NCBI RefSeq assembly: GCF_002157895.1 | Contig: NZ_CP021377.1 | Coordinates: 2,542,001-2,606,000 of the forward strand | Reading direction: 5' to 3' | From: Oceanisphaera profunda | GTDB taxonomy: Bacteria > Pseudomonadota > Gammaproteobacteria > Enterobacterales > Aeromonadaceae | DNA: 64,000 nt | In this document: piece after piece, positions 1,323 to 21,155 of the stretch | Layout of the letters: the number at the start of each line of letters is the position of its first letter | Position numbering within the stretch: the stretch's first letter is position 1 | Notes under the pieces: generated by a model | The model's database searches: none | The model's input: only the letters and a program-made list of their open reading frames with translations | Told to the model about the DNA's origin: nothing | Made by a program: the position numbers and the translations under genes

Positions 1323-1354
1323 TGAGGTGAATTAACGTTACAGGAGTAATGATC

Positions 1355-5388: not shown

Positions 5389-5946
5389 ATGAATAACAAA
5401 GTGTTGATCGTCGAGGATGAGCTTATTTTTGGACAGAACCTCAAGCTCTATCTCGAGGCTCAGCAGTTTGACATCCAAATAGCCAGAGACGGAGCCAGTG
5501 CTATTAACCTGATAAAGGGCAGTTTTATGCCCGACATTATCGTACTCGACTTTCGTTTGCCCGATATGCCGGGGTTTCAGGTATTAGATGAAATCCGCCA
5601 ATACTGGCATGGTCATTGTGTATTAATGACGGGAAACCCTAGCAGTGAAGTGAGTGCACAAGCTATTCAGTACGGCGTCAAGTACATACTGTTTAAACCC
5701 TTTCCGCTGGCAGAGTTGGCGTGTTCAGTTCGAACCTTAATAAATACCAGCCAGTATCAAAAGCAGGATAGCGTTAGTCAGTCAGGCCTAACACCGAAAC
5801 GTAGGCGCCATCAAAGCAGCCACTTTCCGTTACAGATGTATGATGGCACTTGGATTTATGCTGACCGACGCCAGTCTGATCAGGCTGAAAATTTAGACGC
5901 CAACAGCGCTGAAAAAGAATCAGCCGATAATAATGATCCAACATAA
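5389..5946 (+). CDS. Response regulator, receiver domain only
   Basis: 185 residues. Residues 1-120 form a complete CheY-like receiver: acidic pair E9/D10, phospho-acceptor D54 in IIVLDFRLPDMPG, T81, and K103 in ILFKPF. The remaining ~65 residues are polar, with no recognisable DNA-binding, enzymatic or GGDEF/EAL domain; they end in a Gln/Asp/Glu/Asn-rich stretch. It heads the operon, 16 bases before the GspE-type ATPase gene, so it may act on the secretion machine or on a partner by protein contact. No histidine kinase is encoded in the window, so the cognate kinase must be elsewhere or upstream of the window. Confidence 0.85.
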   Translation: MNNKVLIVEDELIFGQNLKLYLEAQQFDIQIARDGASAINLIKGSFMPDIIVLDFRLPDMPGFQVLDEIRQYWHGHCVLMTGNPSSEVSAQAIQYGVKYILFKPFPLAELACSVRTLINTSQYQKQDSVSQSGLTPKRRRHQSSHFPLQMYDGTWIYADRRQSDQAENLDANSAEKESADNNDPT

Positions 5947-5962
5947 TATGTGAGGGAAGGTC

Positions 5963-7690
5963 ATGGATAGACGATCCTTAATGATGGGGCATACATTAGA
6001 TAATTTGACGGTGTCGACAATACCCATCATGCCTCGTTTCGATACCGGGTTGTTAAGTCAGGCCAGAGTCTTGTCCGGTACGAGCGGACGCAAACTCTTA
6101 GTTGAACTGGAAGAGCTGGCGGGGCTAGCGCCCGAGGAATTTACGCTAAGCCTAGGTAAAACCCTGCATTATCCTGTGCTGGACGGTGAACATCTGTTTT
6201 CATGCCCCCCTTGTTTTGAGCGAATCTCGCTGGCGCAAGCGCTCAAGCGAGAGTTTGTCATGATCAAGCAGGATCAGCAACGGGTGGGGGTGTTTTCCGA
6301 TCCGTTCGACGATGCAGGCATCGCTTGGATCGACAGTTGTTTGGACGGTGCACCTTTGTACCTGGTGCACAGAGACTCTCTTATTGCTTATCTCGCCCTT
6401 CACGAAGAGACCTATCAGGCCGTTGATATTTTGAATGCTGAGGCCGACCTACATGATAAAAGCGACAGTTTTCTGGAAGACTTGTCGCTGACCAGTATTA
6501 GCGAAGACCCCAGCTTGGTGATTAAGTTGGTTAACTCAACTCTTTACGATGCTCTAAAAATACATGCCAGTGATATTCATATCGGTATGACAGGTCAGGG
6601 ACTGGTCATTAAATACCGTATCGATGGAGTGTTGAATAATATCAGCCGAGTCCATGGTAATGATATTGCCGAACAAGTTATCTCCCGCGTTAAGGTGATG
6701 GCCGAATTAGATATAGGCGAAAAGCGAGTGCCTCAAGATGGCCGTTTTAAGATTGCAATAAAAGGCCGACAAATAGATTTTCGCGTCTCTATTATGCCCA
6801 GCATTTTTGGTGAAGATGCGGTACTGCGAGTGCTCGATAAACAGGAACTGGCGGACAGTACACAAGGGGTTCGCCTTGACACCTTAGGTTTTGAAGACAC
6901 CACCCTGCGTCATCTACGGCGACTGGCAGCCGAGCCCTATGGCATGGTACTGGTTACCGGCCCCACGGGTAGTGGAAAAACCACCACACTTTATGCCATG
7001 TTGACGGAGATTAATCATGGTGTAGATAAAATCATCACGATAGAAGATCCTGTCGAATATCAACTTTCCGGCGTGCTGCAAATCCCCGTTAATGAGAAAA
7101 AAGGACTGACCTTCGCTCGAGGGTTGCGTTCTATTTTACGTCATGACCCAGATAAGATCATGGTTGGCGAAATTCGTGATCCCGATACCGCTCAAATAGC
7201 GGTCCAGTCAGCGCTGACCGGTCACTTGGTGTTTACCACCATTCATGCCAATAACGTGTTTGACGTCATCGGTCGTTTCACTCAGATGGCCGTGGATCCC
7301 TATAGCTTTGTGTCTGCATTGAATGCGGTGCTCGCCCAACGTCTGCTGCGTTTGGTGTGCCCGTCCTGTGCCGCATCGGTTACTCCTAGTGATGAAGAAC
7401 TACAAGCCTCGGGTCTGGACAGATCCAGCGTCGAGCATTTTCATTTCGTACAAGGCGCCGGTTGCGGCCATTGCCGTGGTACCGGTTATCAAGGCCGCAC
7501 GGCCATCGCCGAGCTATTGCAATTGGATGACGAGCTACGCCAGTTGATTATTGACCGCAAACCGATAGCTGAACTCAAGGAACTTGCCTGCCGCCGAGGA
7601 TTGATTCTGCTGCGCAGTTCGGCGCTGGCGCTGGTGCGTGAGGGACGAACCACTCTGGAGGAGATCAACCGTGTCACTTTTGTCGACTGA
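5963..7690 (+). CDS. GspE/PilB/MshE-family secretion ATPase
   Basis: 575 residues. An N-terminal N1E-like region (about 1-150) precedes the T2SS/T4P ATPase core. Walker A GPTGSGKTTT starts near residue 333, the Asp box follows in ITIEDPVEYQL, Walker B lies in DPDKIMVGEIRDPDTAQIA, and the His box in GHLVFTTIHANN. Near the C terminus two CxxC pairs (CPSC and CGHC) form the zinc-binding insert found in GspE and PilB/MshE assembly ATPases and absent from PilT. It should power pseudopilus assembly at the inner membrane. The start is preceded by GAGGGAAGG. The 3' end overlaps the next gene by 20 bases. Whether it is closer to GspE or MshE cannot be settled by eye. Confidence 0.92.
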   Translation: MDRRSLMMGHTLDNLTVSTIPIMPRFDTGLLSQARVLSGTSGRKLLVELEELAGLAPEEFTLSLGKTLHYPVLDGEHLFSCPPCFERISLAQALKREFVMIKQDQQRVGVFSDPFDDAGIAWIDSCLDGAPLYLVHRDSLIAYLALHEETYQAVDILNAEADLHDKSDSFLEDLSLTSISEDPSLVIKLVNSTLYDALKIHASDIHIGMTGQGLVIKYRIDGVLNNISRVHGNDIAEQVISRVKVMAELDIGEKRVPQDGRFKIAIKGRQIDFRVSIMPSIFGEDAVLRVLDKQELADSTQGVRLDTLGFEDTTLRHLRRLAAEPYGMVLVTGPTGSGKTTTLYAMLTEINHGVDKIITIEDPVEYQLSGVLQIPVNEKKGLTFARGLRSILRHDPDKIMVGEIRDPDTAQIAVQSALTGHLVFTTIHANNVFDVIGRFTQMAVDPYSFVSALNAVLAQRLLRLVCPSCAASVTPSDEELQASGLDRSSVEHFHFVQGAGCGHCRGTGYQGRTAIAELLQLDDELRQLIIDRKPIAELKELACRRGLILLRSSALALVREGRTTLEEINRVTFVD

Positions 7691-8483
7691 ACGTTATATC
7701 GCCATCTTGGGCGCTGATGGAGTGGGTTTGTGCCGACGATCCAAGGATGGTCTGGTGTGGCTAGGGCGTGTTGATAATAAAGAAGAGGCTCGGTCGAGCT
7801 GGTTAGCGGCCACGGAGGCGCTTACATACTTACTGGAACAGGTGCCGAGTCAGCGCAAAAGCGAACTTTGTATACTGGTTTCCAATCATTTTATCCGCTA
7901 TTGCCTGCTGCCTTGGAGTGAGCAAATCGATTCGCTTAGGGAGCTGAAAAGTTATGCCGAAATCTGTTTTGAAGAGATTTACGGCTCCTTAGGTAATGAG
8001 TGGCATTTTCGTTTTTCCCCCCAAGCTAGCGGCCAAGATCGATTAGCCGCGGCGATGCCAGCGGCCTTGATTGCCGGTTTGCAGCAGAGCGCGAATGACA
8101 GAGGTTGGCGGCTGAGATCGATACAACCTTATCTGATGGCCGCATTCAATCGGTTCGCTAACGCACTGCCAACGCAGGACTTCCTATTTATCCTAGCCGA
8201 ACCCAAGCGCAGTACTTTGTTGCTGGCACAGAGCGGACATTGGAGCCATGTACGTTCGCTGTCGAGTATTGATTCCGATCAGGCGCTGGGGATCTTGATT
8301 GCGCGAGAAACTGAGTTGCAAGCGCTCGATGGCATGTCGGCTGCACCCGTCTATTTTCATGCCCCCGACCGAGTCAAAGCGTTCCCCATACCTATTTGTG
8401 GAGTGTCTACCTACCCTCTTAGCCTGCCATTGTCTGAGGCCAGTGAGGATTACCTATATACCATGGCCATGGCGGTGACCTGA
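7671..8483 (+). CDS. PilM/GspL-like actin-fold assembly protein
   Basis: 270 residues from GTG 7671, chosen because GGAGGAG at 7657-7663 lies 7 bases upstream; an ATG at 7638 lies deep inside the ATPase gene. There is no transmembrane segment. The segment VSNHFIRYCLLPW followed by YAEICFEEIYG resembles the start of the PilM/MshI and GspL cytoplasmic (actin-like) domains. Position between the ATPase and the PilN-like gene, as in pilMNOP and mshIJK operons, supports the role: a cytoplasmic adaptor linking ATPase and inner-membrane complex. Sequence similarity to known PilM is weak by eye, so the call rests partly on gene order. Confidence 0.7.
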   Translation: MSLLSTERYIAILGADGVGLCRRSKDGLVWLGRVDNKEEARSSWLAATEALTYLLEQVPSQRKSELCILVSNHFIRYCLLPWSEQIDSLRELKSYAEICFEEIYGSLGNEWHFRFSPQASGQDRLAAAMPAALIAGLQQSANDRGWRLRSIQPYLMAAFNRFANALPTQDFLFILAEPKRSTLLLAQSGHWSHVRSLSSIDSDQALGILIARETELQALDGMSAAPVYFHAPDRVKAFPIPICGVSTYPLSLPLSEASEDYLYTMAMAVT

Positions 8484-8484
8484 G

Positions 8485-9030
8485 ATGCGCACACTCGAAC
8501 TCGATTTTCATTCTCGTCCCCAAGCCAGCCTGCTGGGCTGGAGCTTGTTGGTCGTGGGCATACTCGTCGTTGTGGTCAGCCTGTTCTACCAATGGCGGTT
8601 AACCACGGCCATTGGCGTTCAGCAACATGAATTGGCTCGGGCTGAACAGGTATTACCGGGGCATAACATGGCCAATGGAACCGGCACAGTTGCGTTAAGT
8701 GTGATTCAAGAAGCAGAACTGAAAGAAATTCGTCGTGTTTCCGAACAGATGAATCGTCCTTGGGAAGGATTGTTGACTATGCTTGAAAAGGTGTCACGTG
8801 AGAACGTGTCTCTGTTGCTGCTGGCGCCGGATGCACACAAGCGGCAATTGCGAATCTCGGCGGAATCTCGTGACTTACCTAGCATGCTGGCCTTCCACCG
8901 TCAGCTGGAACAAAGCGATGAATTAAGTGATGTTTCTTTGCTCAGTCACGAGATAGTAAAAAGCGTTGCTGAGCAACCGATCCGTTTTAACCTATTGGCG
9001 ACTTGGGAGGTGAATCATGAATATCCCTAA
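8485..9030 (+). CDS. PilN-like inner-membrane assembly protein
   Basis: 181 residues with a short cytoplasmic N terminus (MRTLELDFHSRPQ), one transmembrane helix at about residues 17-38 (LLGWSLLVVGILVVVVSLFY), then a coiled, ferredoxin-like periplasmic domain. This is the layout of PilN, the C-terminal half of GspL, and MshI-type proteins. It starts 1 base after the PilM-like gene and overlaps the PilO-like gene by 14 bases. With the upstream gene it would correspond to a GspL split into two polypeptides, the arrangement of type IV pili and MSHA rather than classical T2SS. Confidence 0.72.
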   Translation: MRTLELDFHSRPQASLLGWSLLVVGILVVVVSLFYQWRLTTAIGVQQHELARAEQVLPGHNMANGTGTVALSVIQEAELKEIRRVSEQMNRPWEGLLTMLEKVSRENVSLLLLAPDAHKRQLRISAESRDLPSMLAFHRQLEQSDELSDVSLLSHEIVKSVAEQPIRFNLLATWEVNHEYP

Positions 9031-9565
9031 GTTGATCCTGCAAGAGCAGTGGCAACGATTAGGTCGGCCGGGCTGGGTTGGTTGCCTCTTGCTGCTATTG
9101 GCTATTGGTTATTGTGCCTTGGTGTTATTACCCCAGCGGCAACATTTAGCGGGGCTTGAGCTACGCACTACACAAGCTGTTGCATACCGTCTGCGATTGG
9201 ATCAGGGACTGGATCTACCGGTGGCGGCGCCTGGGCAGCAAGTTGATGATTTTTATCAAACTCTACCCGCACAGTTGGATGCCACGGCGGCTATCGATCG
9301 TATCTACGCGCTAGCAAATAAAGAACGTATTGCTTTGTCTCGTGGTGAATATGCACTGGGAGTGGATCCTAAAACTCAGCTGGCGCGCTATCAGATAGTG
9401 TTGCCGGTGAGTGGTAGCTATCCTCAGTTGCGGCGCTTTCTCCATGGTTTATTGGCCGAATTACCCGCAGTTGTGTTGGAAGAAGTGGATTTTAGGCGTA
9501 AGCAAATTGCCGACACTCAACTCGAGGGCCGTATTCGCATGACGCTTTATTTGTCGAGGTTGTAA
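9017..9565 (+). CDS. PilO/GspM-like inner-membrane assembly protein
   Basis: 182 residues: short N terminus, a transmembrane helix at about residues 18-37 (VGCLLLLLAIGYCALVLLP), a short coil, then an alpha/beta domain ending in FRRKQIADTQLEGRIRMTLYLSRL. A PilO/GspM/MshJ protein would dimerise with the PilN-like partner and align the pseudopilus with the secretin. It overlaps both neighbours (14 bases before, 1 base after), indicating tight translational coupling. Identification rests on topology, size and gene order. Confidence 0.72.
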   Translation: MNIPKLILQEQWQRLGRPGWVGCLLLLLAIGYCALVLLPQRQHLAGLELRTTQAVAYRLRLDQGLDLPVAAPGQQVDDFYQTLPAQLDATAAIDRIYALANKERIALSRGEYALGVDPKTQLARYQIVLPVSGSYPQLRRFLHGLLAELPAVVLEEVDFRRKQIADTQLEGRIRMTLYLSRL

Positions 9566-10110
9566 TGCATAACCGCAAGCGGCTGTACTGGATAATTTTT
9601 TTTGGCTTGGCCGGCATTATTGCCGTTGTTCCCGAGTATTTTTTTACGGAAAAGACGGATGTAATTGGCGTGACCCAGGCGGATTTCTCGTTGGATAAGC
9701 AAGGGCAATTAGCGGCATTACGTTCTGGGCCTGAGTCGACAAAGAGCGGCAAGCAAGAGCTGGGGATCACAGCGAAGGGGCACAATATAGCGGTTAATAC
9801 CGATCTTTTTGCCTCTCATAGTTGGTATGTGGCTCCACAGCGAGCGCCCGTGGTAGTGGCCCCCGTTTCGTCACCACTACCTCCGCCCAAGCCCATGACT
9901 CCACCTTTGCCTTTTCGCTTTATCGGCAAACTGGATGACAGCCAAAAGGTACGTGTGTTTTTACAGCAAGGAGAAAAAGTTTATGTCGTTAGTGTGGGGG
10001 ATGTGATTGACGGTACGTACCGAGTAGACGGAGTCACCGATAACTTGATGACATTGCTCTATTTGCCTTTGCAAGTGACTCAGTCTCTGAGTGTAGGGAG
10101 CAAACTATGA
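9565..10110 (+). CDS. PilP/GspC/MshK-like secretin-linking protein
   Basis: 181 residues. One N-terminal transmembrane helix (LYWIIFFGLAGIIAVVPEYF), a Pro-rich linker near residue 100 (SSPLPPPKPMTPPLP), then an HR/PilP-like beta domain: FRFIGKLDDSQKVRVFLQQG, VVSVGDVIDGTYRVDGV. This domain in PilP and GspC contacts the N0 domain of the secretin from the periplasm. No lipobox is present, so the protein is anchored by its helix, as in GspC and MshK. The stop overlaps the secretin start (ATGA), as expected for an interacting pair. Confidence 0.75.
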   Translation: MHNRKRLYWIIFFGLAGIIAVVPEYFFTEKTDVIGVTQADFSLDKQGQLAALRSGPESTKSGKQELGITAKGHNIAVNTDLFASHSWYVAPQRAPVVVAPVSSPLPPPKPMTPPLPFRFIGKLDDSQKVRVFLQQGEKVYVVSVGDVIDGTYRVDGVTDNLMTLLYLPLQVTQSLSVGSKL

Positions 10111-11993
10111 TAATACCCGCCAGAGTTAAGGATGACAGAATGGCGTTAGCCCGCATGCATTTATCGACAGTGATATCAGTTACGGGTGACAAGGGATGGC
10201 TGGGCAGGTTACTGGTGAGATATTCGTGGCGCTACTGGCTAGTTATGGTGCCTATGCTGATTTTGCTGGCCGCATGTGCAGGTTCGGCTAAACATCAAGG
10301 GGTGACATTAATTGAATCTGGCCAGTACGAAGATGGACTGGCGATGTTGGAGCAGAGTGCCGCCGCCGCACCAAGAGACACTGGGTTACAACTTACGCTG
10401 GCTACCCAGCGTAAAAAAGTATTAACCACTTTGTTAAGCCAAGCTGATCTGGCGTTTCATGGGCGAAACTTTAGTGTGGCACGACTTGGTTATCAGCGAG
10501 TACTGGGTATTGATTCTTATAACGCCAGAGCCGAAGAAGGCTTGCGTCAGTTAGATCAGATGCATTACATCGGCGATATGCTGCGCAATGGACAAACCGC
10601 ACTCCGGCGCGGTGATTTAAGTGGTGCTGAACAACAGATGCGAGCAATTTTTGCGCTGGATCCTAAACATGAAGGCGGGCAGCAATTACAGCGCAATATT
10701 GAGGCGATCAAGGCACGTACTTATGCGCCTTATCCCCAGTTGCGTTCACGTTTAAACCGTCCAGTTACGCTGGAATTCAGAGACGCCAATCTTCGGGTGA
10801 TTTTCGAAGTTTTGGCCAGTACGGCGGGTATGAATTTTATCTTTGATAAAGATATAAGGCCGGATATCAAGGCTTCTATATTTGTGCGTCAGGTGAGTAT
10901 TGAGGATGCTGTTTCCCTGTTATTGCAACAGAATCAGTTGCACCAGAAGGTGGTCAACGATAACACCATTCTTATTTACCCTGACTCGCCACAAAAACTG
11001 AAAGATTACCAAGAGCTGGTGATGCGCACTTTTTATCTGACCAGTACCGATGCCAACTCGGCCCTCAATTTAATCAAGACCATGCTTAAAACCCGCGATG
11101 TTTTTATCGATGAACGGCTCAACACGCTGACTATGCGGGATTCGGCGGAGGCAGTACGGATGGCTGAGATGCTGTTGTTGGCGCAGGATCAGGCGAGCCC
11201 AGAAGTGGTGCTGGAGCTGGAAGTAATGGAAGTCTCCCAGCAGCGTATTCTGGATCTCGGCCTGCAATGGCCCAATACCTTTGGTGTGCTCAGCGATGAT
11301 GGTTCAGATATCAGGATTTTGGATCAGTTGCGTGGCATAGATGCGGGGCGCATTAGTATTTCACCTTCTCCTCAGTTAAAGATTAATGCGCAGGATAAGG
11401 ATGTGAATACCTTGGCCAGTCCCGTGATCCGGGTCACCAACAAAGAGCAGGCTAAAATCCATATCGGTCAGCGAGTCCCCATTGTCAGTGCCACTTCAAC
11501 ACCCTCCACACAAGGTCCTGTGATTACCGAAAGTATCACCTATTTGGATGTAGGTTTGAAATTGGACGTGCAGCCGACTATCTATCTTAACGATGAGGTG
11601 GGTATAAAAATATCCCTAGAGGTGAGTAATGCCACGCCGCTAAGGCCCACCAATACCGGCACTATTCCCGTGCAAATAGACACGCGCAATGCGACCACCA
11701 CCTTGCGACTACGCGATGGTGAAACGCAACTACTGGCAGGTTTGATGCGAAATGATCATTCTTCCAGCGGCAATAAGGTGCCAGGACTTGGGGATGTACC
11801 AGGTCTGGGGCGCTTGTTTGGCAGTAACCAGGATATCGTTGGTAAATCTGAATTGGTGTTGTCTATTACTCCGCGCATCGTACGTAATTTGCCATACCGA
11901 AGCCCCAGTGACATGGAGTTTGCGAGCGGTACCGAGAGCCATTTGCAGCTACAGCCCGTGGTGGTGCCGGTATCTTTCAGTGACACAGAATAG
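10107..11993 (+). CDS. TPR-containing secretin lipoprotein (GspD/MshL/PilQ family)
   Basis: 628 residues. A long N-terminal region leads to a lipobox, LILLAAC, with the lipidated cysteine at residue 57. Residues ~60-205 are TPR-like helices (ESGQYEDGLAMLEQ and similar). An STN/N0-type domain (VTLEFRDANLRVIFEVLAS) follows at ~215-290, one N1-type repeat at ~300-370, and the secretin barrel at ~420-595 with the hallmark VPGLGDVPGLGRLFGS. It should form the outer-membrane gate. Lipidation of the secretin itself may allow self-targeting without a pilotin; none was seen. The start overlaps the preceding stop, which supports 10107, although a later in-frame ATG nearer the lipobox is possible. Confidence 0.88.
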   Translation: MIIPARVKDDRMALARMHLSTVISVTGDKGWLGRLLVRYSWRYWLVMVPMLILLAACAGSAKHQGVTLIESGQYEDGLAMLEQSAAAAPRDTGLQLTLATQRKKVLTTLLSQADLAFHGRNFSVARLGYQRVLGIDSYNARAEEGLRQLDQMHYIGDMLRNGQTALRRGDLSGAEQQMRAIFALDPKHEGGQQLQRNIEAIKARTYAPYPQLRSRLNRPVTLEFRDANLRVIFEVLASTAGMNFIFDKDIRPDIKASIFVRQVSIEDAVSLLLQQNQLHQKVVNDNTILIYPDSPQKLKDYQELVMRTFYLTSTDANSALNLIKTMLKTRDVFIDERLNTLTMRDSAEAVRMAEMLLLAQDQASPEVVLELEVMEVSQQRILDLGLQWPNTFGVLSDDGSDIRILDQLRGIDAGRISISPSPQLKINAQDKDVNTLASPVIRVTNKEQAKIHIGQRVPIVSATSTPSTQGPVITESITYLDVGLKLDVQPTIYLNDEVGIKISLEVSNATPLRPTNTGTIPVQIDTRNATTTLRLRDGETQLLAGLMRNDHSSSGNKVPGLGDVPGLGRLFGSNQDIVGKSELVLSITPRIVRNLPYRSPSDMEFASGTESHLQLQPVVVPVSFSDTE

Positions 11994-12020
11994 TGTTCGC
12001 CGGTTTTTTTAGGAGGCGTT

Positions 12021-12494
12021 ATGTCACAGGGATCGAGAGGTTTTTCACTGATTGAAATGGTGATTACCATGGCACTGGTCGCGTTGATTGCCAGCATGGC
12101 GTTACCTATGACAGAAACTGTGATCCGTCGTGGCCACGAGCAGGAGTTGAGAACGGCCTTATATCAGCTGCGTGATGCCATTGATGCCTACAAGATGGCG
12201 GCAACGGCGGGGCATATCCAAACGGCGGCGAATGAAAGTGGTTATCCGCCCTCTCTGCAAATATTGGTGGAAGGCGTACGAGATGTGCGAGATGTCAAAG
12301 GTGGGAAAATATATTTTTTACGGCGCATACCGAGAGATCCTTTTGCTGATCAGCAACGACAAGTAACCGAACACTGGGGGCTGCGTGCCTATGATAGCCC
12401 AGCAGAAGATCCCAGATCTGGAGATGATGTCTTTGATGTGTATTCATTGGCTCGGGGGCAAGGGCTCAATGGTGTTCCTTATCGGGCATGGTGA
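12021..12494 (+). CDS. Prepilin-like protein (GspG/H-type pseudopilin) 1
   Basis: 157 residues with a short leader and the class III cleavage site RG|FSLIEMVITMALVALIA, including the conserved Glu at mature position 5. The globular part ends in VYSLARGQGLNGVPYRAW, with the Asp-rich RSGDDVFDVYS segment resembling the calcium-binding C terminus of GspG. An AGGAGG box lies just before the ATG. It is the first of three consecutive prepilin-like genes and probably forms part of the periplasmic pseudopilus. No prepilin peptidase is encoded in the window. Confidence 0.88.
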   Translation: MSQGSRGFSLIEMVITMALVALIASMALPMTETVIRRGHEQELRTALYQLRDAIDAYKMAATAGHIQTAANESGYPPSLQILVEGVRDVRDVKGGKIYFLRRIPRDPFADQQRQVTEHWGLRAYDSPAEDPRSGDDVFDVYSLARGQGLNGVPYRAW

Positions 12495-12497
12495 CTT

Positions 12498-12866
12498 ATG
12501 AAACGAAGCCGAGGTTTTACATTGATTGAACTGCTGGTGGTGATGGGCATTATCGCCATGCTGCTGACTGTGGCAGGGCCGCGTTATTTCACCAGTCTGG
12601 AAAAGGCGAAGGAGACCACGCTCCGTCAAAGCTTATCTGTAATGCGCGAGGCGCTCGATCAATATTATGGTGACACTGGCCGTTATCCAGACTCGATAGA
12701 GCAATTGGTGGAACAGCGTTATCTACGCAAGTTACCGCAGGATCCTATTACCGAACGCAGTGATTTGTGGGTGATAGTGCCCCCGCCGGAAGGTGATGGA
12801 GTGTGGGATATTAAAAGTGGCGCCCCCGGCCAAGCCCGGGATGGAAGTCAGTATGCACATTGGTAA
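12498..12866 (+). CDS. Prepilin-like protein (GspG-type pseudopilin) 2
   Basis: 122 residues with leader MKRSRG and the cleavage motif RG|FTLIELLVVMGIIAMLL. A GspG-like body follows: LRQSLSVMREALDQYYGDTGRYPDSIEQL and DPITERSDLWVIVPP. The repeated YxxDxGRYP and LPxDP elements are typical of major pseudopilins. It starts 3 bases after the preceding pseudopilin gene and its 3' end overlaps the next by 14 bases. Given its close match to the GspG pattern it is the best candidate for the major pseudopilin of this machine. Confidence 0.9.
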   Translation: MKRSRGFTLIELLVVMGIIAMLLTVAGPRYFTSLEKAKETTLRQSLSVMREALDQYYGDTGRYPDSIEQLVEQRYLRKLPQDPITERSDLWVIVPPPEGDGVWDIKSGAPGQARDGSQYAHW

Positions 12867-13335: not shown

Positions 13336-13391
13336 AATAGCACTGCAGGATTGGGCAATGGAATGTCAATTTATCATTTAGGGAGAGCAAG

Positions 13392-13892: not shown

Positions 13893-14302
13893 AGGCAAAC
13901 ATGACATTTACTTCTGTCGGTCTTTGGCTAGCCGCCAGTTTTTTTACGAGCGCCATTCAGGCCAGCGAGTTGGTTTACACACCCATCAATCCCACCTTTG
14001 GCGGGAGTCCTTTAAACGGCTCTTTTTTACTGGGTAATGCTCAAGCCCAGAATAAGTACAAAGACCCAGATCTAGAAGACAGAGTGAGAAATAATACGCC
14101 TACGGCACTAGAGCGCTTTACCTCTCAGCTGGAGTCCCGTTTGTTATCGCAGTTGTTGACTAATATTCAGACTGGCCAGACCGGCAGCCTGACCACTGAT
14201 GCGTTTACCATCAACCTTCAGGATAATGACGGTGTCTTGACAATTGTCATTACTGACAGGCTAACCGGTGAAGTGTCGGAAATTATCGTTGACAGTTTCT
14301 AA
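13889..14302 (+). CDS. csgF: Curli assembly protein CsgF
   Basis: 137 residues. Signal peptide (LWLAASFFTSAIQA) followed by the diagnostic CsgF sequence ELVYTPINPTFGGSPLNGS near the mature N terminus; in E. coli this segment threads into the CsgG pore. The rest includes a Gln-rich linker and a C-terminal beta region (DGVLTIVITDRLTGEVSEI). CsgF is surface-exposed and couples secretion to nucleation by CsgB. It overlaps csgE by 4 bases. Confidence 0.94.
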   Translation: MKANMTFTSVGLWLAASFFTSAIQASELVYTPINPTFGGSPLNGSFLLGNAQAQNKYKDPDLEDRVRNNTPTALERFTSQLESRLLSQLLTNIQTGQTGSLTTDAFTINLQDNDGVLTIVITDRLTGEVSEIIVDSF

Positions 14303-14342
14303 GTCTACTGGCTGTTCAAGACCCCACAAGGATGTCGAGCCC

Positions 14343-15197
14343 ATGAACAAATTTATTATACTGACTCTAGTATCAGTGGCGTTATCCGGATGTGCATTGC
14401 GTGAGCCGATGCCGGCAGAAATAGAGCCGGAAATGCCGACGTTAACGCCCCGAGCGTCGACCTATTATGATTTATTGGCACTACCCAAACCTAAAGGGCG
14501 GTTAGTAGCAGCTGTCTATGGCTTTCGTGATCAGACTGGTCAGTACAAACCGACACCGGCCAGCTCTTTCTCTACCAGTGTGACCCAAGGTGCAGCCAGT
14601 ATGCTCATGGATGCGATGCAAGCCAGTGGCTGGTTTCACGTGTTGGAGCGAGAAGGACTGCAGAACGTACTTACCGAGCGCAAGATCATCCGCGCCTCTC
14701 AGAGTAAGCCCAACACGCCGGTTAATATTCAGGATGAACTGCCACCTCTGCAAGCCGCTAATATACTGCTGGAAGGCGGTATTGTCGCTTACGATACCAA
14801 CGTGCGCAGTGGCGGAGAAGGCGCGGCATATCTGGGGATCAGCATTTCTCATGAATATCGAGTAGATCAGGTTACGGTTAATCTGCGGGCTGTGGATGTG
14901 CGCAGTGGCCGGATGCTGGCTAATGTAATGACCAGTAAAACCATTTATTCGGTAGGGCGCCAAGCGGGCGTGTTCAAATTTATCGAGTTCAAAGAGCTAT
15001 TGGAAGCCGAAGTAGGTTACACCACTAATGAACCGGCGCAACTCTGTGTGCTGTCGGCGATAGAGTCTGCGGTTGCTCATTTAGTGGCGCAGGGCATCGA
15101 ACAGCGGTTGTGGCAAGCGGGTGACGAAAGCAGCTTTGAGCAATCATCGTTACCCAAATATCTCCGTGAAATGCCAATGTCCCCCACACGTATCTAA
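14343..15197 (+). CDS. csgG: Curli secretion channel CsgG
   Basis: 284 residues from ATG 14343, giving a clean lipoprotein signal (MNKFIILTLVSVALSGC) with the lipidated Cys at residue 17. An in-frame ATG at 14268 lies within csgF and would bury the lipobox, so it is not used. Family segments include VAAVYGFRDQTGQYKP, GWFHVLEREGLQNVLTERKIIR and DVRSGRMLANVMTSKTIYS. The E. coli protein is 277 residues. CsgG forms the nonameric outer-membrane channel for curlin subunits. It is the last gene of the operon; 409 bases separate it from the convergent csgA gene. Confidence 0.95.
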   Translation: MNKFIILTLVSVALSGCALREPMPAEIEPEMPTLTPRASTYYDLLALPKPKGRLVAAVYGFRDQTGQYKPTPASSFSTSVTQGAASMLMDAMQASGWFHVLEREGLQNVLTERKIIRASQSKPNTPVNIQDELPPLQAANILLEGGIVAYDTNVRSGGEGAAYLGISISHEYRVDQVTVNLRAVDVRSGRMLANVMTSKTIYSVGRQAGVFKFIEFKELLEAEVGYTTNEPAQLCVLSAIESAVAHLVAQGIEQRLWQAGDESSFEQSSLPKYLREMPMSPTRI

Positions 15198-15563: not shown

Positions 15564-15592
15564 TAAAAAACGCCGCCCTTCAGGACGGCGTA
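15564..15592 (-). terminator. Rho-independent terminator of csgBA
   Basis: Read on the minus strand, ACGCCGTCC-TGAA-GGGCGGCGT forms a 9-pair stem (one T-G wobble) followed by TTTTTT. It lies 15 bases after the csgA stop, as expected for the end of the csgBA transcript. Confidence 0.85.
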
Positions 15593-15606
15593 AAGTAAGA
15601 GTTTTC

Positions 15607-16929
15607 TTAGTTTTGGTTGCTGGTTGCCAGGTTACCACTACCGTATTGGGTAATGTAGGCGGCTTGGTTGTAGCCAGACTGGGTGATATAGGCTTGGTTG
15701 CCGGAACCGCCCTGAACGGTGGATGCGTAGTTGTTACTGTCAGATTGAGAGATCTGAGATAGGTTGTTATCGCCATATTGCTGCTCAACCCAAGCAATAT
15801 TATCGCTACCTGACTGAGCTAGGTCCACGCTGTTATCGGTACCGACGCTGTAACCCGAGGCAAGGTTACCGCCATCCTGTTGCTTGGAAGTCAGCGTATT
15901 ACCTGTGCCATTTTGGGTGAAATACAATTCGTTATAGCTGCCGGTCTGGCTGAGATTTATTTTGTTATCAACCCCGTTCTGGGTCAGGCTGGCTGTTTGG
16001 TTAATACCATACTGGCCTCCCTGATTGGTATCATACTCGGTACCAGCATAAAGCTCGTTACCAGTGCCGTTCGAGGTAATGGTCAGGTTATGGTTCACAC
16101 CTTCTTGTTGAATATAACTGAGGTTGAGACTGCCGTTTTGACTAACGTAAGCGTTCATTCCTGTAGCATCGAATTGTTCGACTAGCGCACCGTTTTGACC
16201 GCCACTTTGCCAGATGGTCGCTAGATTATTCTCACCGACCAGCTGGTCAACGATAGCATCGTTATATACACCTTGCTGGTTGATGTATGAGACGCTGGCC
16301 AGCTGTTCCTCCTGCCAGGTTTCCGCATAGTTATCGATACCTGACTGTACTATATTGGCGTTGTTATCGATGCCATCATACTGCTCAACATAGGCGTCGT
16401 TGTATTCACCAGATTGTTGCAGATTAATGTTGCTGTTTTCATATTTTTGATACGTCGCCGCTCGGTTGCTATTACCACTTTGGTGTATGTAAGCATTGCT
16501 GGCTGCGGTCTGCTCCTGATAAATGGAAGTGTCGTTACTATTACCATATTGTTCGGCAGTGGCGTAGCTGCTCACCTGATCTTGTTGCCAGCTCCGTGCA
16601 TCGTTATCGTAACCTGCCTGAGTTTGCGAAGACGAGCCCGTATCGCTGCCTCGTTGGACGCTAAGAACTGCGTTTAGCGTTCCTGACTGATTTTGTAATG
16701 AGTTACTATTCATGTCGTCTATCTGCTCGACACCTGCATAGTTAGTCGTACCATTTTGTGTCTGGGTAGCTGTACTGAAGCTGGCTAAGCTCTGTGTAAC
16801 AAGGCCAATGTTGCCAACACCATATTGGTTCTGGTTAGATGTACTGTCGTTAGCGAGAGCCTGGACGCTAAGCAGTGTCATTATAGCGGCCGCGATAGGT
16901 GTGATTTTGAGCTGGGTTATATTCAACAT
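15607..16929 (-). CDS. csgA: Very long CsgA-like curlin (major amyloid subunit)
   Basis: 440 residues from ATG at 16929, which has AGGAG 9 bases upstream; an earlier in-frame ATG lies inside csgB. Signal peptide IMTLLSVQALA is followed by about 17 curlin repeats built on the pattern Q-x-G-x-x-N-x-A-x-x-x-Q: for example ATAEQYGNSNDTSIYQEQ, YIHQSGNSNRAATYQ, AYITQSGYNQAAYITQ. E. coli CsgA has 5 repeats in 151 residues, so this subunit is about three times larger. It contains inserts that enlarge single turns (for example YAGTEYDTNQGGQYGINQ). It should be exported by CsgG and polymerise on CsgB. Confidence 0.92.
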   Translation of the reverse strand: MLNITQLKITPIAAAIMTLLSVQALANDSTSNQNQYGVGNIGLVTQSLASFSTATQTQNGTTNYAGVEQIDDMNSNSLQNQSGTLNAVLSVQRGSDTGSSSQTQAGYDNDARSWQQDQVSSYATAEQYGNSNDTSIYQEQTAASNAYIHQSGNSNRAATYQKYENSNINLQQSGEYNDAYVEQYDGIDNNANIVQSGIDNYAETWQEEQLASVSYINQQGVYNDAIVDQLVGENNLATIWQSGGQNGALVEQFDATGMNAYVSQNGSLNLSYIQQEGVNHNLTITSNGTGNELYAGTEYDTNQGGQYGINQTASLTQNGVDNKINLSQTGSYNELYFTQNGTGNTLTSKQQDGGNLASGYSVGTDNSVDLAQSGSDNIAWVEQQYGDNNLSQISQSDSNNYASTVQGGSGNQAYITQSGYNQAAYITQYGSGNLATSNQN

Positions 16930-16984
16930 GGTATTATCTCCTGAAAGTATTATTTGCGTCCCTGACAAATGAGCGCAGTTGCTA

Positions 16985-17482
16985 CTATTGATACTGGTTA
17001 ACCTGCACATTTTGGTTATTACCGTATTGCGTAATGCTGCCTCGCAGCCCCACTCCGAACTGCTCGATACGGGCGCGGTTGTTGATACCAGCTTGTATTA
17101 TCACCGCTTGGTTATCTGCACCCGATTGTGAAATTAAGGCTGAATTGCCATACCCAGACTGATCGATAATTGCCATTTGATTCCCTCCTTGTTGCAAGAT
17201 ATAAGCTTCTTGGTCAGTGCCAACCTGAACTATGCTCCCCAGCAGGGATTGGCCCGATTGGTTTAGCAACGCTAAATTGTTTTGACCTACTTGGCGCACT
17301 GCCAACTGTGCCGTTGTAGTGCTGCTGAACTCGAGCCCTTCTGGCATCAGTAAGTTGGTCTGTTCAACCAAATCAAAATTGTTCATTAAATCAGCCGCCT
17401 GCGACGGAGCGCTGATCAAGCCTAGACAGAGAACCAGCGTAATCCTGGTATAATGATGCCGCCAATCAGATAGTCGTAGCAT
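16985..17482 (-). CDS. csgB: Curlin nucleator CsgB
   Basis: 165 residues. Signal peptide (LVLCLGLISAPSQA), a linker (DLMNNFDLVEQTNLLMPEG), then about five curlin repeats such as RQVGQNNLALLNQSG, IIDQSGYGNSALISQSG and IEQFGVGLRGSITQYG, ending in NVQVNQYQ. Size and repeat number match CsgB, which anchors at the cell surface with CsgF and templates CsgA. AAGGA lies 8 bases before the ATG. It is 55 bases upstream of csgA on the same strand, the usual csgBA order. Confidence 0.92.
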   Translation of the reverse strand: MLRLSDWRHHYTRITLVLCLGLISAPSQAADLMNNFDLVEQTNLLMPEGLEFSSTTTAQLAVRQVGQNNLALLNQSGQSLLGSIVQVGTDQEAYILQQGGNQMAIIDQSGYGNSALISQSGADNQAVIIQAGINNRARIEQFGVGLRGSITQYGNNQNVQVNQYQ

Positions 17483-17532
17483 GAGTCAGATCCTTCTGAT
17501 TTTTATTTCTGCCTACTTTCCTTGTAGTAAAA

Positions 17533-17560
17533 CCTGTCTTTGCAACCTTGCAAAGACAGG
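17533..17560 (-). terminator. Terminator between the adhesin-like genes and csgBA
   Basis: Perfect 13-pair inverted repeat CCTGTCTTTGCAA / TTGCAAAGACAGG with a 2-base centre. On the minus strand it is followed by TTTTAC. It lies 7 bases after the stop of the 17568-19781 gene, so csgBA probably has its own promoter in the ~50 bases before csgB. Confidence 0.75.
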
Positions 17561-17567
17561 GAACAGG

Positions 17568-19781
17568 CTATTGAACGTTCACTGGGACCGTAGTGACGGT
17601 ACCGAAGGCCGACCTTATGGTGGCAGTGGGATTAGCGGTCAGCACCAAATCATCGGTCCGAGCTGCCAGCCGCCAATTTCCTGTTGGAGTTGGTGTTGTT
17701 GTACCCAAAATGACGGGGCCATCAATACTCGATACTTCGACGGTAATGGTATTGCCTGTTGCTAACGAGGTTTGGCCTTGAATGCTCCAAGTGAGCCTAT
17801 TTCGTCTTCCTCTCGCCTCTGCATCGGTCACTGTCAGCGTTTCAGCCGTATTCGGTGGTGGTGATACCGATACGGTGACGGTAGCCGGTGCCGATTGAGC
17901 GCCTAGCGAATCTTGCGCTTGATAGGTGAAGCTAGCGGTAAACGCGCTGGTAACCGAGGTTGGAGGGGTATAAGACACTGTAGTGCCGTCGGTAGAGACT
18001 GTACCTTGCCCCGTAGTTGGCTGTGTCAGGTTGACCACCGTAAGCGGTGTGTTGCCTTCTGGATCGCTGTCATTAGCTAATACCGAGATGGTAAGTGGAA
18101 TGCCCAATGTTGCGGCGTCGTCGTTTACCGCTATCGGGGCTTGGTTTGCCCCCACGGTGACAGTGACGGTTGCCGGCTCAGAGAGACCGCCGCGGCTATC
18201 TTGCGCACGATAGGTAAAGGTCGCGACCAATGGGGCGTTGTTGGTGGTAGTCGGTGGTGTATAGACCACAGAAGTGCTGCCATTCAGCGCGACACTGCCT
18301 TGTCCGACGGCCGGTTGGGTCAGTTGCACTATGCTGAGCGGGGTATCACCATCGGGATCGCTATCGTTAGCCAGCAACTGCAGTGTTAGCGGTACGCCCA
18401 CAGTAGTGGTACCACTGTCCGCTTGAGCCAGGGGTAACTGATTATCGGGTGTATCAGGAGCGTCACCTGTCACAGTAACCATCTCAATATCCGAGCCGCC
18501 AGCGGCGGACTGTACTCTGATGCTGGCAGGAGGCTGGCTCAAATCAGGTATGGTCAGCGTCTGCAGGTTAGAAGATTTGCTCAACCTACCGAAGCCGGTG
18601 GCCACCAGATCCGGTACTTGAGTTTCATCGCTTGATGTCGCCTCTATGCGCAGTGTGTTGTCATCCCACGAATAGGTAGCGCTATTGATCTTGACGATAT
18701 CAATCAACTCGCTGGACAGGGAGCTGGGTGTGCCGTTTGGCGAACTGGCGGTCACCACGATCAAGGACGGCAACTCAGCTGATGGGGGCTGCTGCACGAA
18801 GAAGCGGCCGTTATTATCAGGGATGAGAGCGGTCTGACAGGGAGATGTGCCACCCACCAGTGCCAGAGTTTCGCGGTAGCAGACATCGGCATCTTCCGAT
18901 GAGCTGGCGAAGACTTCGATTTGCGTTTGCGTCTGAGTGCGTTGGTAGCTGGCTCGCTCGATTTCCAGTGGTAACGAGGGGACCGAGTCGCGTACCTTGC
19001 CGGAGAGGGTAAAATCATTATTTTGAATTATCCCCGGCGGACCATCGATGCGCACAAAGTTGGTATCGAAGGGGCTGCCGGTGACTTCCTCGGTCAGGTT
19101 GGGGTTACCGATAAAGGTTTCTGTTACCCCTGTTTCCGGGTTGGTCTCGGTATAGGTGCCACTCAGACTTTGCAGGAAGGGGCCTATGTCTCCCCCGAGA
19201 GCGCCGGTGAAGTCGCCAGGCGTGCCGATACCGATATCACGGGTCATATTGATAGCCCGTCTGCCGACATCGGCTGCGTCTACCACGAAGGTTTCGACGC
19301 CGTAAGGATGGGTGACAGTGTAGGTACCCGCCACTGGCACCGAGGCGCGGATACGAATACGGGCAAAGCCCACTTGATCTCCTGCTTTGGGGGTTTCTGC
19401 GGCGAAGGCTGCTTCCAGTGCCGCAACATAAACCTCGAGCTCATAGCCGGGGACTGCACCTTCGGGGATGGAGGTTTCGGCCAAAAACCAGAACAGCTCG
19501 CCGGGCCAGTTTCCCGGGAAAACCAGCGGGTCGGCATCGTCAAATACCCCGGGTTCTGGATTTAAGGTACACATGTAGGCACTGGCAGTGCCACCGCTGA
19601 CGGCTTTGGATGTGCACAGCTCCAACTGCACTTCATTTTCGTCCTGATACCAGAGCGGAAAACCGCCGGATATGGCCGTATGGGGCCCTGGGGCCACCAC
19701 CGACAGCTCAGCCTGAGCCGGCCCAACGGTGGCGACAAACAGCCCTATGGGTGTGATGATTGTTCTTGTCCATTTGTTCAT
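17568..19781 (-). CDS. Large exported protein with cadherin/Ig-like repeats
   Basis: 737 residues with a signal peptide (PIGLFVATVGPAQA). Residues ~25-275 are a domain shared with the protein encoded at 19806-21155: PGPHTAISGGFPLWYQDEN, ELCTSKAVSGG, YMCTLNPEPG, NMTRDIGIGTP, EEVTGSPFDTNFVRIDGP. Residues ~450-645 hold two cadherin-type/VCBS-like repeats (VGVPLTLQLLANDSDPDGD, LGIPLTISVLANDSDPEGN, each followed by VTVTV strands); the DSDPDGD loops are calcium-binding in this superfamily. The C-terminal ~90 residues form another beta domain with no sorting signal seen. It is a plausible cell-surface or secreted adhesin and candidate cargo of the adjacent secretin; function unproven. Confidence 0.8.
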   Translation of the reverse strand: MNKWTRTIITPIGLFVATVGPAQAELSVVAPGPHTAISGGFPLWYQDENEVQLELCTSKAVSGGTASAYMCTLNPEPGVFDDADPLVFPGNWPGELFWFLAETSIPEGAVPGYELEVYVAALEAAFAAETPKAGDQVGFARIRIRASVPVAGTYTVTHPYGVETFVVDAADVGRRAINMTRDIGIGTPGDFTGALGGDIGPFLQSLSGTYTETNPETGVTETFIGNPNLTEEVTGSPFDTNFVRIDGPPGIIQNNDFTLSGKVRDSVPSLPLEIERASYQRTQTQTQIEVFASSSEDADVCYRETLALVGGTSPCQTALIPDNNGRFFVQQPPSAELPSLIVVTASSPNGTPSSLSSELIDIVKINSATYSWDDNTLRIEATSSDETQVPDLVATGFGRLSKSSNLQTLTIPDLSQPPASIRVQSAAGGSDIEMVTVTGDAPDTPDNQLPLAQADSGTTTVGVPLTLQLLANDSDPDGDTPLSIVQLTQPAVGQGSVALNGSTSVVYTPPTTTNNAPLVATFTYRAQDSRGGLSEPATVTVTVGANQAPIAVNDDAATLGIPLTISVLANDSDPEGNTPLTVVNLTQPTTGQGTVSTDGTTVSYTPPTSVTSAFTASFTYQAQDSLGAQSAPATVTVSVSPPPNTAETLTVTDAEARGRRNRLTWSIQGQTSLATGNTITVEVSSIDGPVILGTTTPTPTGNWRLAARTDDLVLTANPTATIRSAFGTVTTVPVNVQ

Positions 19782-19805
19782 GATGCCTCCTGGCTCACTG
19801 GATAC

Positions 19806-21155
19806 TTAGGGCTGAATAATGATGACTTCTTCGAGATCACTGCCGCCGTTGGCCGATACCACCCGTATCTGGGCAGGCGGAATGGGCCCGAGGTCGGTGG
19901 TGAGCGACTTGATTGGCCCGGCTCCAACGAGCTCTGCGATTTCGTCACCGTTGCCGAACACGGTCAGTGTCGGCGATGCCGTTTCGTCGCTGCTGCTGGC
20001 GGTAATAGTGATCTCGCTGGTTGCCAGGTTGTACGTGGCACTGTGGATCTGCACCAGATCGACTAAGGGAGCCGTGACGGCTGCTGCCGTGCTGTTGGGG
20101 ATGGCCAGCTGGTTGTCGGCGGTCAGGTTCAGGGTGACCGGCAGAGTGGAGGGATTGGTGCTCGATTGGCCATACCAATTGCCGGTGGCGTTAGCTTCAG
20201 TCATCTCTATGCTGACATCGGCCGAGTCAGTAAAGCTGGTGCTAGCCGGTGGTGGCGGGGCTTGCAGAAACACATCCTGCTGGGCAACCACGCCGCTGTT
20301 TACATTTTTGCGGGAGTAGGTGGCGCGTTCGACCTTGGCCGGGGTGGTCAGGTTGATGGTCGACAGTTTTCCCATCACGGCGAACAAGTCAGTGCGTAAA
20401 TCGATTCCTCCCGGGCCCTGAATGCGAATGAAGTTGGTATCGAAGGGGCTGCCAGTGACTTCTTCTTCCAAGTTGGGATCACCGATAAAGCTTTCAACTA
20501 GGCCGGTGACCGGATTGGTTTCACTATAGGGGCCGTTCACGCTACGCAGAAAAGGTCCCACATCACCGGTCAGGGCACCGTCATAGGTTTGGGGCGTGCC
20601 TATGCCGATATCGCGGGTCATGTTGATGGCCCTTCCACCCGCTACATCCACCTCGAATATCTCGACGCCGTAAGGGTGGGTGACTATGTAAGTACCGGCG
20701 GTGGGTACATCGACCCGAATACGAATACGAGCAAAGCTGACTTGATCCCCTTCAGCCACTTCCTCGGCGGCAAACGCGGCTTCCAGAGCCGAAACGTAGG
20801 TTAAATCGATACCCGAGGCGGCGTCCACTATGCTGGCGTCCCCAGTAAACCAGAAGGCTTCACCCGGAAAGTTAGTGGGAAAGTTGACCGCTTGGGTAGT
20901 ATCGAAGCCCGGTTCGGGTAGCAGGCCACACATATAGGAGGGCGCGCCCGGGGCCCCCGGGGCGCGTGAGCTGATTGCCTTGGACAGGCACAGGTCGAGT
21001 GCTCGCCCGTGGGTATCTTGATACCAAGCTGCAAAGCCTCCGTTTACTTGCAGGTAAGGACCTGGATCTACGTCATTCAATGCCGCCTGCGCCGACTGAC
21101 TCGCCACCATAACGAGTAGCAGCGAAGTTGCTGTGCTAACTGTGGTTTTTTGCAT
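19806..21155 (-). CDS. Exported paralogue of the Ig-repeat protein, without the repeats
   Basis: 449 residues, signal peptide (LLLVMVASQSAQA). Residues ~25-265 align with the protein encoded at 17568-19781 (GPYLQVNGGFAAWYQDTHG, YMCGLLPEPG, NMTRDIGIGTP, EEVTGSPFDTNFIRIQGPGG). A second shared beta region covers the C terminus (IHSATYNLATSEITITASSSDET versus INSATYSWDDNTLRIEATSS), ending in a NGGSDLEEVIII element. It lacks the cadherin-like repeats. It lies 24 bases upstream of its paralogue, so the two are probably one operon produced by duplication. I do not recognise the shared N-terminal domain. Confidence 0.78.
   Translation of the reverse strand: MQKTTVSTATSLLLVMVASQSAQAALNDVDPGPYLQVNGGFAAWYQDTHGRALDLCLSKAISSRAPGAPGAPSYMCGLLPEPGFDTTQAVNFPTNFPGEAFWFTGDASIVDAASGIDLTYVSALEAAFAAEEVAEGDQVSFARIRIRVDVPTAGTYIVTHPYGVEIFEVDVAGGRAINMTRDIGIGTPQTYDGALTGDVGPFLRSVNGPYSETNPVTGLVESFIGDPNLEEEVTGSPFDTNFIRIQGPGGIDLRTDLFAVMGKLSTINLTTPAKVERATYSRKNVNSGVVAQQDVFLQAPPPPASTSFTDSADVSIEMTEANATGNWYGQSSTNPSTLPVTLNLTADNQLAIPNSTAAAVTAPLVDLVQIHSATYNLATSEITITASSSDETASPTLTVFGNGDEIAELVGAGPIKSLTTDLGPIPPAQIRVVSANGGSDLEEVIIIQP

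Follow-up and report, generated by a model that had tools for sequence, protein, structure and literature searches.

Curli, secretion and multicopper oxidase operons of Oceanisphaera profunda share a predicted promoter signature and resemble the manganese-oxidation locus of Pseudomonas putida GB-1

The region described here is the left part of a stretch of 64,000 nucleotides (the window) of Oceanisphaera profunda, contig NZ_CP021377.1. This single contig of 3.5 Mb makes up the genome, and the window begins at its position 2542001. Curli genes lie there beside genes for a secretion machine of the Xcm type, and an MnxG-type multicopper oxidase operon enters the window from the left. A plus-strand block from 5389 to 15197 held a receiver gene, an ATPase gene, PilM/N/O/P-like genes, a secretin gene and three pseudopilin-type genes, followed by csgE, csgF and csgG. 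Neighbouring genes of the block overlapped or were less than 60 bp apart. This spacing and the common strand held from the pseudopilin genes into csgEFG, and the terminator scan listed no terminator-like site on the plus strand between the last pseudopilin gene and csgE. The genes of this Xcm-csgEFG operon are:

5389..5946, plus strand: receiver-domain protein, first gene of the operon (Pfam Response_reg, E 9.9e-21)
5963..7690, plus strand: GspE-type secretion ATPase (Pfam T2SSE, E 5e-123; NCBIfam)
7638..8483, plus strand: PilM/GspL-like protein, by gene order alone, with no Pfam or NCBIfam match
8485..9030, plus strand: PilN-like inner-membrane protein (Pfam, E 1.1e-3, under the cut-off)
9017..9565, plus strand: PilO / T2SSM_b-like inner-membrane protein (Pfam T2SSM_b, E 5e-7)
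9565..10110, plus strand: PilP/GspC-like protein, by gene order alone, with no Pfam or NCBIfam match
10107..11993, plus strand: secretin with a lipobox (Pfam secretin, E 1.7e-40; NCBIfam)
12021..12494, plus strand: pseudopilin 1 (Pfam N_methyl)
12498..12866, plus strand: pseudopilin 2, GspG-like (Pfam N_methyl)
12793..13335, plus strand: pseudopilin-like protein 3, without a Pfam match, with a prepilin-like GFTYIG start
13392..13892, plus strand: csgE (PF10627, E 5.7e-37)
13889..14302, plus strand: csgF (PF10614, E 3.1e-31)
14343..15197, plus strand: csgG (PF03783, E 1.4e-78); start set by the lipobox LSGC, the longest open reading frame running from 14268

The genes, coordinates and strands that the initial annotation had given for the curli and secretion block were borne out by the open reading frame list and Pfam, with the start of csgG moved to 14343. 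Matches to CsgG, CsgE, CsgF and the curlin-repeat proteins exceeded the Pfam cut-offs, so that the curli (type VIII) gene set is present. The third pseudopilin-like protein is presumably the counterpart of XcmX. The Pfam scan found no match to the GspF (platform) family among the genes of the operon. The NCBIfam scores of the secretin were 151.8 bits for GspD (cut-off 351), 144.3 for PilQ and 93.9 for MshL, all below the curated cut-offs, with MshL also below HofQ. The ATPase scored 493.8 bits for GspE, below the curated cut-off of 630, and its MshEN domain match fell below the Pfam cut-off, as did weak TPR-like matches in the N-terminal part of the secretin. The machine had been described as like that of the mannose-sensitive haemagglutinin (MSHA) pilus, a label that did not hold: the nearest models were GspD and GspE rather than MshL, all below cut-off, and MSHA pilus membership was ruled out by these scores, MshL not being the best secretin match. 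The machine has a secretin, an ATPase, PilM/N/O-type genes and pseudopilins in common with the MSHA pilus and with classical type II secretion. Its secretin and ATPase lie under the GspD and GspE equivalog cut-offs of the latter, and its platform gene, xcmS, lies upstream and is frameshifted in this genome.

The curlin genes lie on the opposite strand, behind the genes of two exported proteins:

19806..21155, minus strand: 449-amino-acid (aa) exported protein, family unassigned, first gene of the csgBA operon
17568..19781, minus strand: 737-aa exported protein with Big_9/cadherin-like repeats (Pfam)
17533..17560, minus strand: terminator/attenuator-like hairpin between the 737-aa gene and csgB (terminator scan)
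16985..17482, minus strand: csgB-type curlin with 4 QxGxxN motifs (Pfam and motif count)
15607..17010, minus strand: csgA-type curlin with 18 QxGxxN motifs (Pfam and motif count)

The hairpin may tune curlin expression; terminator-like sites across the region were no more numerous than in shuffled sequences. The N-terminal part of the 737-aa protein is related to the 449-aa protein, for which sequence searches named no family. Thioredoxin matches in the latter (E 0.004, residues 373-415) were judged to be chance, and the AlphaFold models were poor (mean pLDDT 48.9 for the 449-aa and 61.8 for the 737-aa protein).

Matches to T2SSF at 2532700-2533673, left of the window, led to an upstream stretch, L084 (handles beginning with L denote our loci or stretches, those with G our genomes). 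Along it lie, one after another, genes for a haem-degrading-type protein, a sensor kinase, a sigma-54 response regulator, GspF, which is in two pieces, and GspG (minus strand), a lytic transglycosylase, the oxidase and a beta-propeller protein. The oxidase, an MnxG-type giant multicopper oxidase of 1945 aa with HxH motifs (L084:11445-17282), lies directly upstream of the window, which holds the genes behind it:

6..1322, plus strand: YVTN beta-propeller protein, second gene of the mnxG-type operon, whose start lies left of the window
1349..2017, plus strand: SCO1/SenC copper-chaperone-like protein (Pfam)
2014..2652, plus strand: second SCO1/SenC-like protein (homology and order)
2657..4213, plus strand: cytochrome c / ABC substrate-binding fusion protein (Pfam)
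4210..5169, plus strand: SurA-type PPIC peptidyl-prolyl isomerase (PPIase; Pfam)

From the oxidase to window position 5169, the order of these six genes equals, gene for gene, that of the published mnxG operon of P. putida GB-1, given as mnxG, YVTN propeller, SCO1, SCO1, an ABC-binding protein with cytochrome c, and SurA (Table 4, excerpt of PMC11409713). This match marked the locus as one of the manganese-oxidase type and the machine as the Xcm pathway of the manganese-oxidising factor. The sensor kinase (L084:5724-7235) and the regulator with a sigma-54-interaction domain (7217-8620) form an MnxS/MnxR-like pair, so that the mnxG-to-SurA order, a sigma-54 regulator and a predicted sigma-54 site before mnxG are all found here as in GB-1. 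The likeness to MnxS1/S2/R was judged from domains, and that to MnxG from protein type and operon order. The GspF and GspG genes (xcmS/xcmT1) lie about 14 kb upstream, outside the window, and like the oxidase and the regulators they were beyond the reach of the initial annotation; the pair adjoins mnxG here and in Pseudomonas G012, and is about 95 kb from mnxG in G016. In P. putida, xcmX, xcmT2 and xcmT3 are said to lie beside csmE, csmF and csmG, with xcmT1/xcmS as a separate pair; likewise in our locus the pseudopilin genes adjoin csgEFG and the GspG/GspF pair stands apart.

The Xcm cluster was named for GB-1 and KT2440 and is also found in WCS358 (excerpt of PMC4509608), which is locus L079 of our set and carries the block. 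Its published phenotype in P. putida, by the title of de Vrind et al. 2003 (PMID 12581354), is secretion of the manganese-oxidising factor. Excerpts of further papers report csgEFG and csgAB in P. putida together with secretory mutants (PMC3056050), and homologues of curli both in P. putida F1 and in P. fluorescens Pf0-1; according to the latter excerpt, Pseudomonas species other than P. stutzeri have no csgD close to their csg operons (PMC3521004). The initial annotation knew of no characterised system of such composition; this statement has to be withdrawn, Xcm of P. putida GB-1 being already published. Most of the composition is familiar from the Xcm/csm/MnxG locus, and the window adds a member outside Pseudomonas, in the genus Oceanisphaera. 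The new and testable part is a promoter code common to three operons.

The mnxG operon, the Xcm-csgEFG operon and the operon of the exported proteins and csgBA share, as predicted from their upstream regions, a sigma-54-type promoter with an upstream CCC-N6-GGG palindrome. The sites before the latter two operons are:

5183..5196, plus strand: palindromic enhancer-like site CCCCAATATCGGGT, Xcm-csgEFG operon
5222..5235, plus strand: second palindromic enhancer-like site CCCCATTTTTGGGT, Xcm-csgEFG operon
5307..5322, plus strand: sigma-54 type -24/-12 promoter, 82 bp before the receiver gene
21233..21248, minus strand: sigma-54 type promoter of the 449-737-csgBA operon
21333..21346, minus strand: palindromic enhancer-like site ACCCAATACTGGGT, 449-737-csgBA operon

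Upstream regions were scanned with a sigma-54 matrix, the site threshold being 14 for mnxG and for the control classes. A site of at least 14 was found in 42/45 regions upstream of mnxG and in none on the opposite strand; the misses were G424 (13.1), L138 and L139, the latter two in MnxG genomes without Xcm. In 70 of 71 loci a site lay 76-89 bp ahead of the receiver gene; it scored 16.0 in 36 of them and 11.2 in the window. In the 71st, L073, another gene had been taken for the receiver gene, and the true one is preceded by a site of 15.0 and by a palindrome. Of 9 orthologues of the 449-aa gene, 8 had a site at -71 to -93, with scores from 11.9 to 16.4, the miss being L104. Left out of this count were L046, L042, L041, L076 and L039, whose 42-45% matches were to the paralogue, with the true gene outside the locus, and L017, L066 and L083, where the locus ends too near. 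In G012 (the genome of L017), TGGTATGGAAGTTGCC precedes the 449-aa gene and composites of palindrome and promoter are present. As a side observation, at G042:C1:241369-248908 (L104, L170) a sigma-54-type site was seen on the mnxG side alone.

No site of at least 14 was found upstream of the genes for PPIase, GspE, PilM, the secretin, the first pseudopilin, csgE, csgF, csgG, csgB, the 737-aa protein or xcmT1. SCO1 had upstream sites in 7/71 regions, all mnxG-less (L052, L054, L056, L059, L060, L061 and G419); the remaining sites were at the beta-propeller gene in 2/6 (L058 and L025, both mnxG-less), the lytic transglycosylase gene in 2/25 (G000 and G432), the cytochrome/binding-protein fusion gene in 1/69 and PilN in 1/67. 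Sites in the MnxR row (36/70) were discarded as an artefact, the MnxR receiver domain having matched the receiver gene of the operon. The CCC-N6-GGG palindrome was present in 43/45 mnxG, 70/71 receiver and 9/9 449-aa upstream regions, and the stricter CCCC-N6-GGGG in 38/45, 68/71 and 5/9 respectively; in 14 control classes, some of which count G012 and G020 twice, the strict form reached at most 4/73. The looser form was somewhat above shuffles before the PPIase, first pseudopilin and 737-aa genes. Across 82 kb (the upstream stretch and the whole window), the composite of palindrome and sigma-54 site occurred three times, at the three operons, against an average of 0.05 in shuffles, and G432 showed it at the same three operons. 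Regulation of the two gene sets by unrelated means thus found no sign, as the operons carry a common sigma-54/enhancer-like signature.

Predicted integration host factor and sigma-54 sites before mnxG and mcoA, which are induced by manganese, have been described (excerpt of PMC11930936), as have a non-oxidising rpoN mutant and MnxR as a sigma-54 dependent, predicted regulator (excerpt of PMC11409713). The words curli and secretion are absent from the available parts of both papers, and the account of the GB-1 mnxG operon in these parts stops at SurA, without tying the Xcm and csg operons to its control. In the open-licence literature we found no report that connects MnxR or sigma-54 with either the Xcm or the csg operons, which is weak evidence of absence.

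The composite was further sought in 30 whole Pseudomonas genomes out of the 67 loci, with the reversed pattern as control. It matched in 28 of the 30 genomes, 65 times in all, as compared with 2 matches of the reversed pattern. Fifty-one of the 65 matches lay at the three operons or at a split-off beta-propeller operon: 24 within 400 bp of a receiver gene, 5 at mnxG, 21 at the 449-aa/csgBA operon (fetched stretches showed the 449-aa gene for 13 and csgBA alone for 1, and 7 were assigned by position) and 1 at a beta-propeller operon with mnxG elsewhere (G016). In several genomes the pattern located the 449-737-csgBA operon on another contig or far off. In G016 the split-off operon (beta-propeller, SCO and Xcm genes; G016:C1:3391400-3399500, L152) lies about 550 kb from mnxG with its own composite promoter, as if an operon had been split and each part had retained its control site.

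A secretin scan gave 67 loci, 65 of them titled Pseudomonas. The pairing of csgEFG with Xcm is not confined to this genome: csgE, csgF and csgG followed the secretin on the same strand in 56/67 loci, 19 of which also had csgA and csgB inside the available flank. Of the 11 loci without csgEFG, L055, L058 and L071 stop at or near a contig edge. Among 198 genomes of relatives, 23 from the window's genus, the Xcm secretin (threshold E 1e-100) was present in 4, all of that genus, 3 of which had CsgE at the locus; CsgE was present in 30, of which 27 were without the Xcm secretin at this threshold. The remaining one of the 4, G419, showed neither mnxG nor csg genes nor the large proteins within the fetched 40 kb. 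In 369 genomes sampled across the class (thresholds E 1e-60 for the Xcm-like secretin and E 1e-100 for MnxG), CsgE was found in 6, an Xcm-like secretin in 11 and MnxG in 5, and the window's genome alone had more than one of the three. The linkage of csgEFG to Xcm is therefore strong, though confined to a limited set of lineages. It supports the earlier view of one coordinated system with a secretin and CsgG side by side, as does the shared signature.

That view had included a dedicated machine whose pseudopili might help to build the fibre. Taken further, Xcm would be a curli-assembly device, with pseudopili that push curlin or act as its scaffold, or with a secretin that exports an accessory protein of the curli system. 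The position of csgEFG behind the pseudopilin genes on the same strand in 56/67 loci is what such a device would lead one to expect. However, Xcm occurred without csgEFG at nine loci (L025, L052, L054, L056, L059-L061, L073 and G419), and CsgE mostly occurred without the Xcm secretin, in all but 3 of the 30 CsgE-bearing relatives and, at E 1e-60, in 5 of the 6 CsgE genomes of the class sample. E. coli curli, encoded by csgBAC and csgDEFG, are not known to require a secretin/pseudopilin machine. They have CsgE, CsgF, CsgG and curlin-repeat proteins in common with the locus, whereas here Pfam scans called no CsgD or CsgC in the block, a sigma-54-type promoter is found instead, and csgEFG come after the genes of a secretion machine. 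Since Xcm is found without curli and curli without Xcm, we consider a dedicated curli machine improbable.

MnxG was sought in 50 of the 67 Xcm genomes and homologues were found in 41, with 67-75% identity in the longest segment. The nine mnxG-less genomes were L025, L052, L054-L056 and L058-L061; at the locus, seven had no csgEFG and two loci end too soon, csg genes elsewhere being outside this search. Of the 41 genomes with MnxG, 39 carried csgEFG at the locus; of the other two, L071 is truncated and L073 lacks them. In six of the mnxG-less loci (L052, L054, L056, L059, L060 and L061), SCO1 is preceded by an mnxG-type promoter, which looks as though mnxG had been excised from behind it. The joint absence of mnxG and csgEFG is suggestive but falls short of proof. 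As a side observation, G011, the genome of L073, carries three MnxG copies on contigs C66 and C106, two of them in tandem on C106.

The same counts bear on a chance arrangement, in which csg genes landed by an unrelated secretion operon and were kept by inheritance. Nearly all loci come from one genus, the window's genome is alone in the class sample in having more than one of CsgE, the Xcm-type secretin and MnxG, and the phylogenetic test of the joint absence, given below, was not significant; all of this would fit hitch-hiking. It would not lead one to expect that the promoter signature is common even to operons on different contigs, as where the 449-737-csgBA operon lies on another contig, or that mnxG and csgEFG are absent together, and we regard it as most improbable.

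A further alternative arises from the exported proteins, which would be the ancestral and main clients of Xcm, with MnxG and curli a later addition under the control that Xcm already had, and MnxG possibly reaching the surface otherwise. The 449-aa and 737-aa genes were kept in 8/9 mnxG-less Xcm genomes. In three of these that were checked (G005, G007 and G008), the 449-737 operon stood behind a composite promoter, with no csgBA in the 8.1 kb fetched. Among 50 chosen genomes, the 449-aa protein was found in 14, all of which carry Xcm: 3 from the window's genus, every mnxG-less Pseudomonas except G001 (8 of 9), and also G010, G016 and G042. It was unmatched in 4 MnxG genomes without Xcm, in 12 members of the genus without Xcm and in 11 genomes with CsgE but without Xcm. 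On the other hand, it is not obligatory to Xcm, being also unmatched in G001, G011, G419 and six genomes with a distant Xcm-like secretin, and the published phenotype, by title, is secretion of the manganese-oxidising factor. The two proteins are the best candidates, as judged from their sequences and distribution, for further Xcm substrates, yet that they are its main clients seems unlikely.

Together, these results favour reading the locus as a regulon for manganese(II) oxidation under shared control, a counterpart outside Pseudomonas to the MnxG/Xcm/curli locus that P. putida GB-1 carries. To this reading we assign a probability of roughly 0.7. A sensor kinase and a sigma-54 activator of the MnxS/MnxR kind would bind the CCC-N6-GGG palindromes, MnxR being the putative binder, and would activate all three operons, namely that of mnxG and its copper and cytochrome helpers, Xcm-csgEFG, and that of the exported proteins and csgBA. 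Manganese(II) would be the signal in this organism, and each operon would be co-transcribed. Xcm would export the folded oxidase, and probably also the 449-aa and 737-aa proteins, to the surface. CsgG, CsgE and CsgF would export the curlins, and the amyloid coat might hold the enzyme and the manganese oxide at the cell surface.

The gene content, its conservation, the common promoter signature and the joint absence of mnxG and csgEFG are read from the sequences, whereas that MnxR binds, that manganese induces the Xcm and csg operons and that Xcm exports MnxG are inferences. Several observations weigh against this counterpart reading. The motif was derived from reading these same promoters, and an initial, narrower scan found the mnxG site in 19/44 regions, the figure of 42/45 being reached after the stretch had been widened to +150. 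The palindromes could in part be terminator hairpins, as ACCCAATACTGGGT was also flagged as terminator-like on the plus strand. The xcmT1/xcmS pair lacks the signature (sigma-54 site in 0/79 regions, palindrome in 2/81), which leaves part of Xcm outside the shared code. L104, the 449-aa gene that stands head to head with a second mnxG in G042, has no sigma-54 site of its own. In G424 the strict pattern missed the mnxG and receiver composites and found the 449-aa composite alone; G012, G020 and G005 each showed one extra loose composite in 20-40 kb. In the genome scan 14/65 composites were unassigned, two of which, when fetched, had no known gene of the set just downstream, and 2/30 genomes had none. 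The secretin tree reduced the joint absence to 4 independent pairs, with csg concordant in 3 or 4 (sign test, p 0.125). In L073, MnxG and Xcm are present while csgEFG is missing from the locus, and the set spacing gave no composite. Finally, xcmS (GspF; G000:C1:2532670-2533859, L084:8670-9859) is frameshifted into 194 and 191 aa, which, assembly error aside, could leave this strain with an inactive machine. The gene is open in the siblings G432, G424 and G419 and in G012 (395-396 aa), and its best match is open in 49/50 Xcm genomes, G040 also being split.

A wider version of the counterpart reading, which we hold tentatively and with somewhat less than even confidence, is that a single sigma-54 regulon, controlled by an MnxR-type activator at CCC-N6-GGG enhancers, builds a mineralising surface with two cooperating outer-membrane exporters. 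Xcm would export the oxidase and the two large repeat proteins, and CsgG an amyloid on which manganese oxide would be deposited; Xcm and the repeat proteins would be the core, and oxidase and curli a joint module, lost as a unit. Why bacteria oxidise manganese and how an oxide-forming enzyme stays outside the cell are open questions, and the abstract of PMC11930936 states the regulation and function of manganese oxidation to be unknown. If one promoter code does join the oxidase, the secretion machine and the curli amyloid, oxide formation would be part of a programmed surface coat. Two exported proteins are put forward as candidate substrates of Xcm, and the earlier assignment of the machine to curli is corrected.

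Other genes of the genome resemble parts of the block. A second CsgG-family gene lies at G000:C1:1987118-1987654 (L002; E 1.8e-29), and further GspE/GspF-type pairs at G000:C1:97181-99543 and 2290484-2293026 (L007, L008, L012); the genes at 3227708-3230701 we take, by type, to be Tad-like. Within the window, the gene at 23954-25789, which presumably encodes a thiamine-diphosphate enzyme resembling sulfoacetaldehyde acetyltransferase, adjoins genes for an IclR-like regulator and a membrane protein and looks unconnected with the locus.

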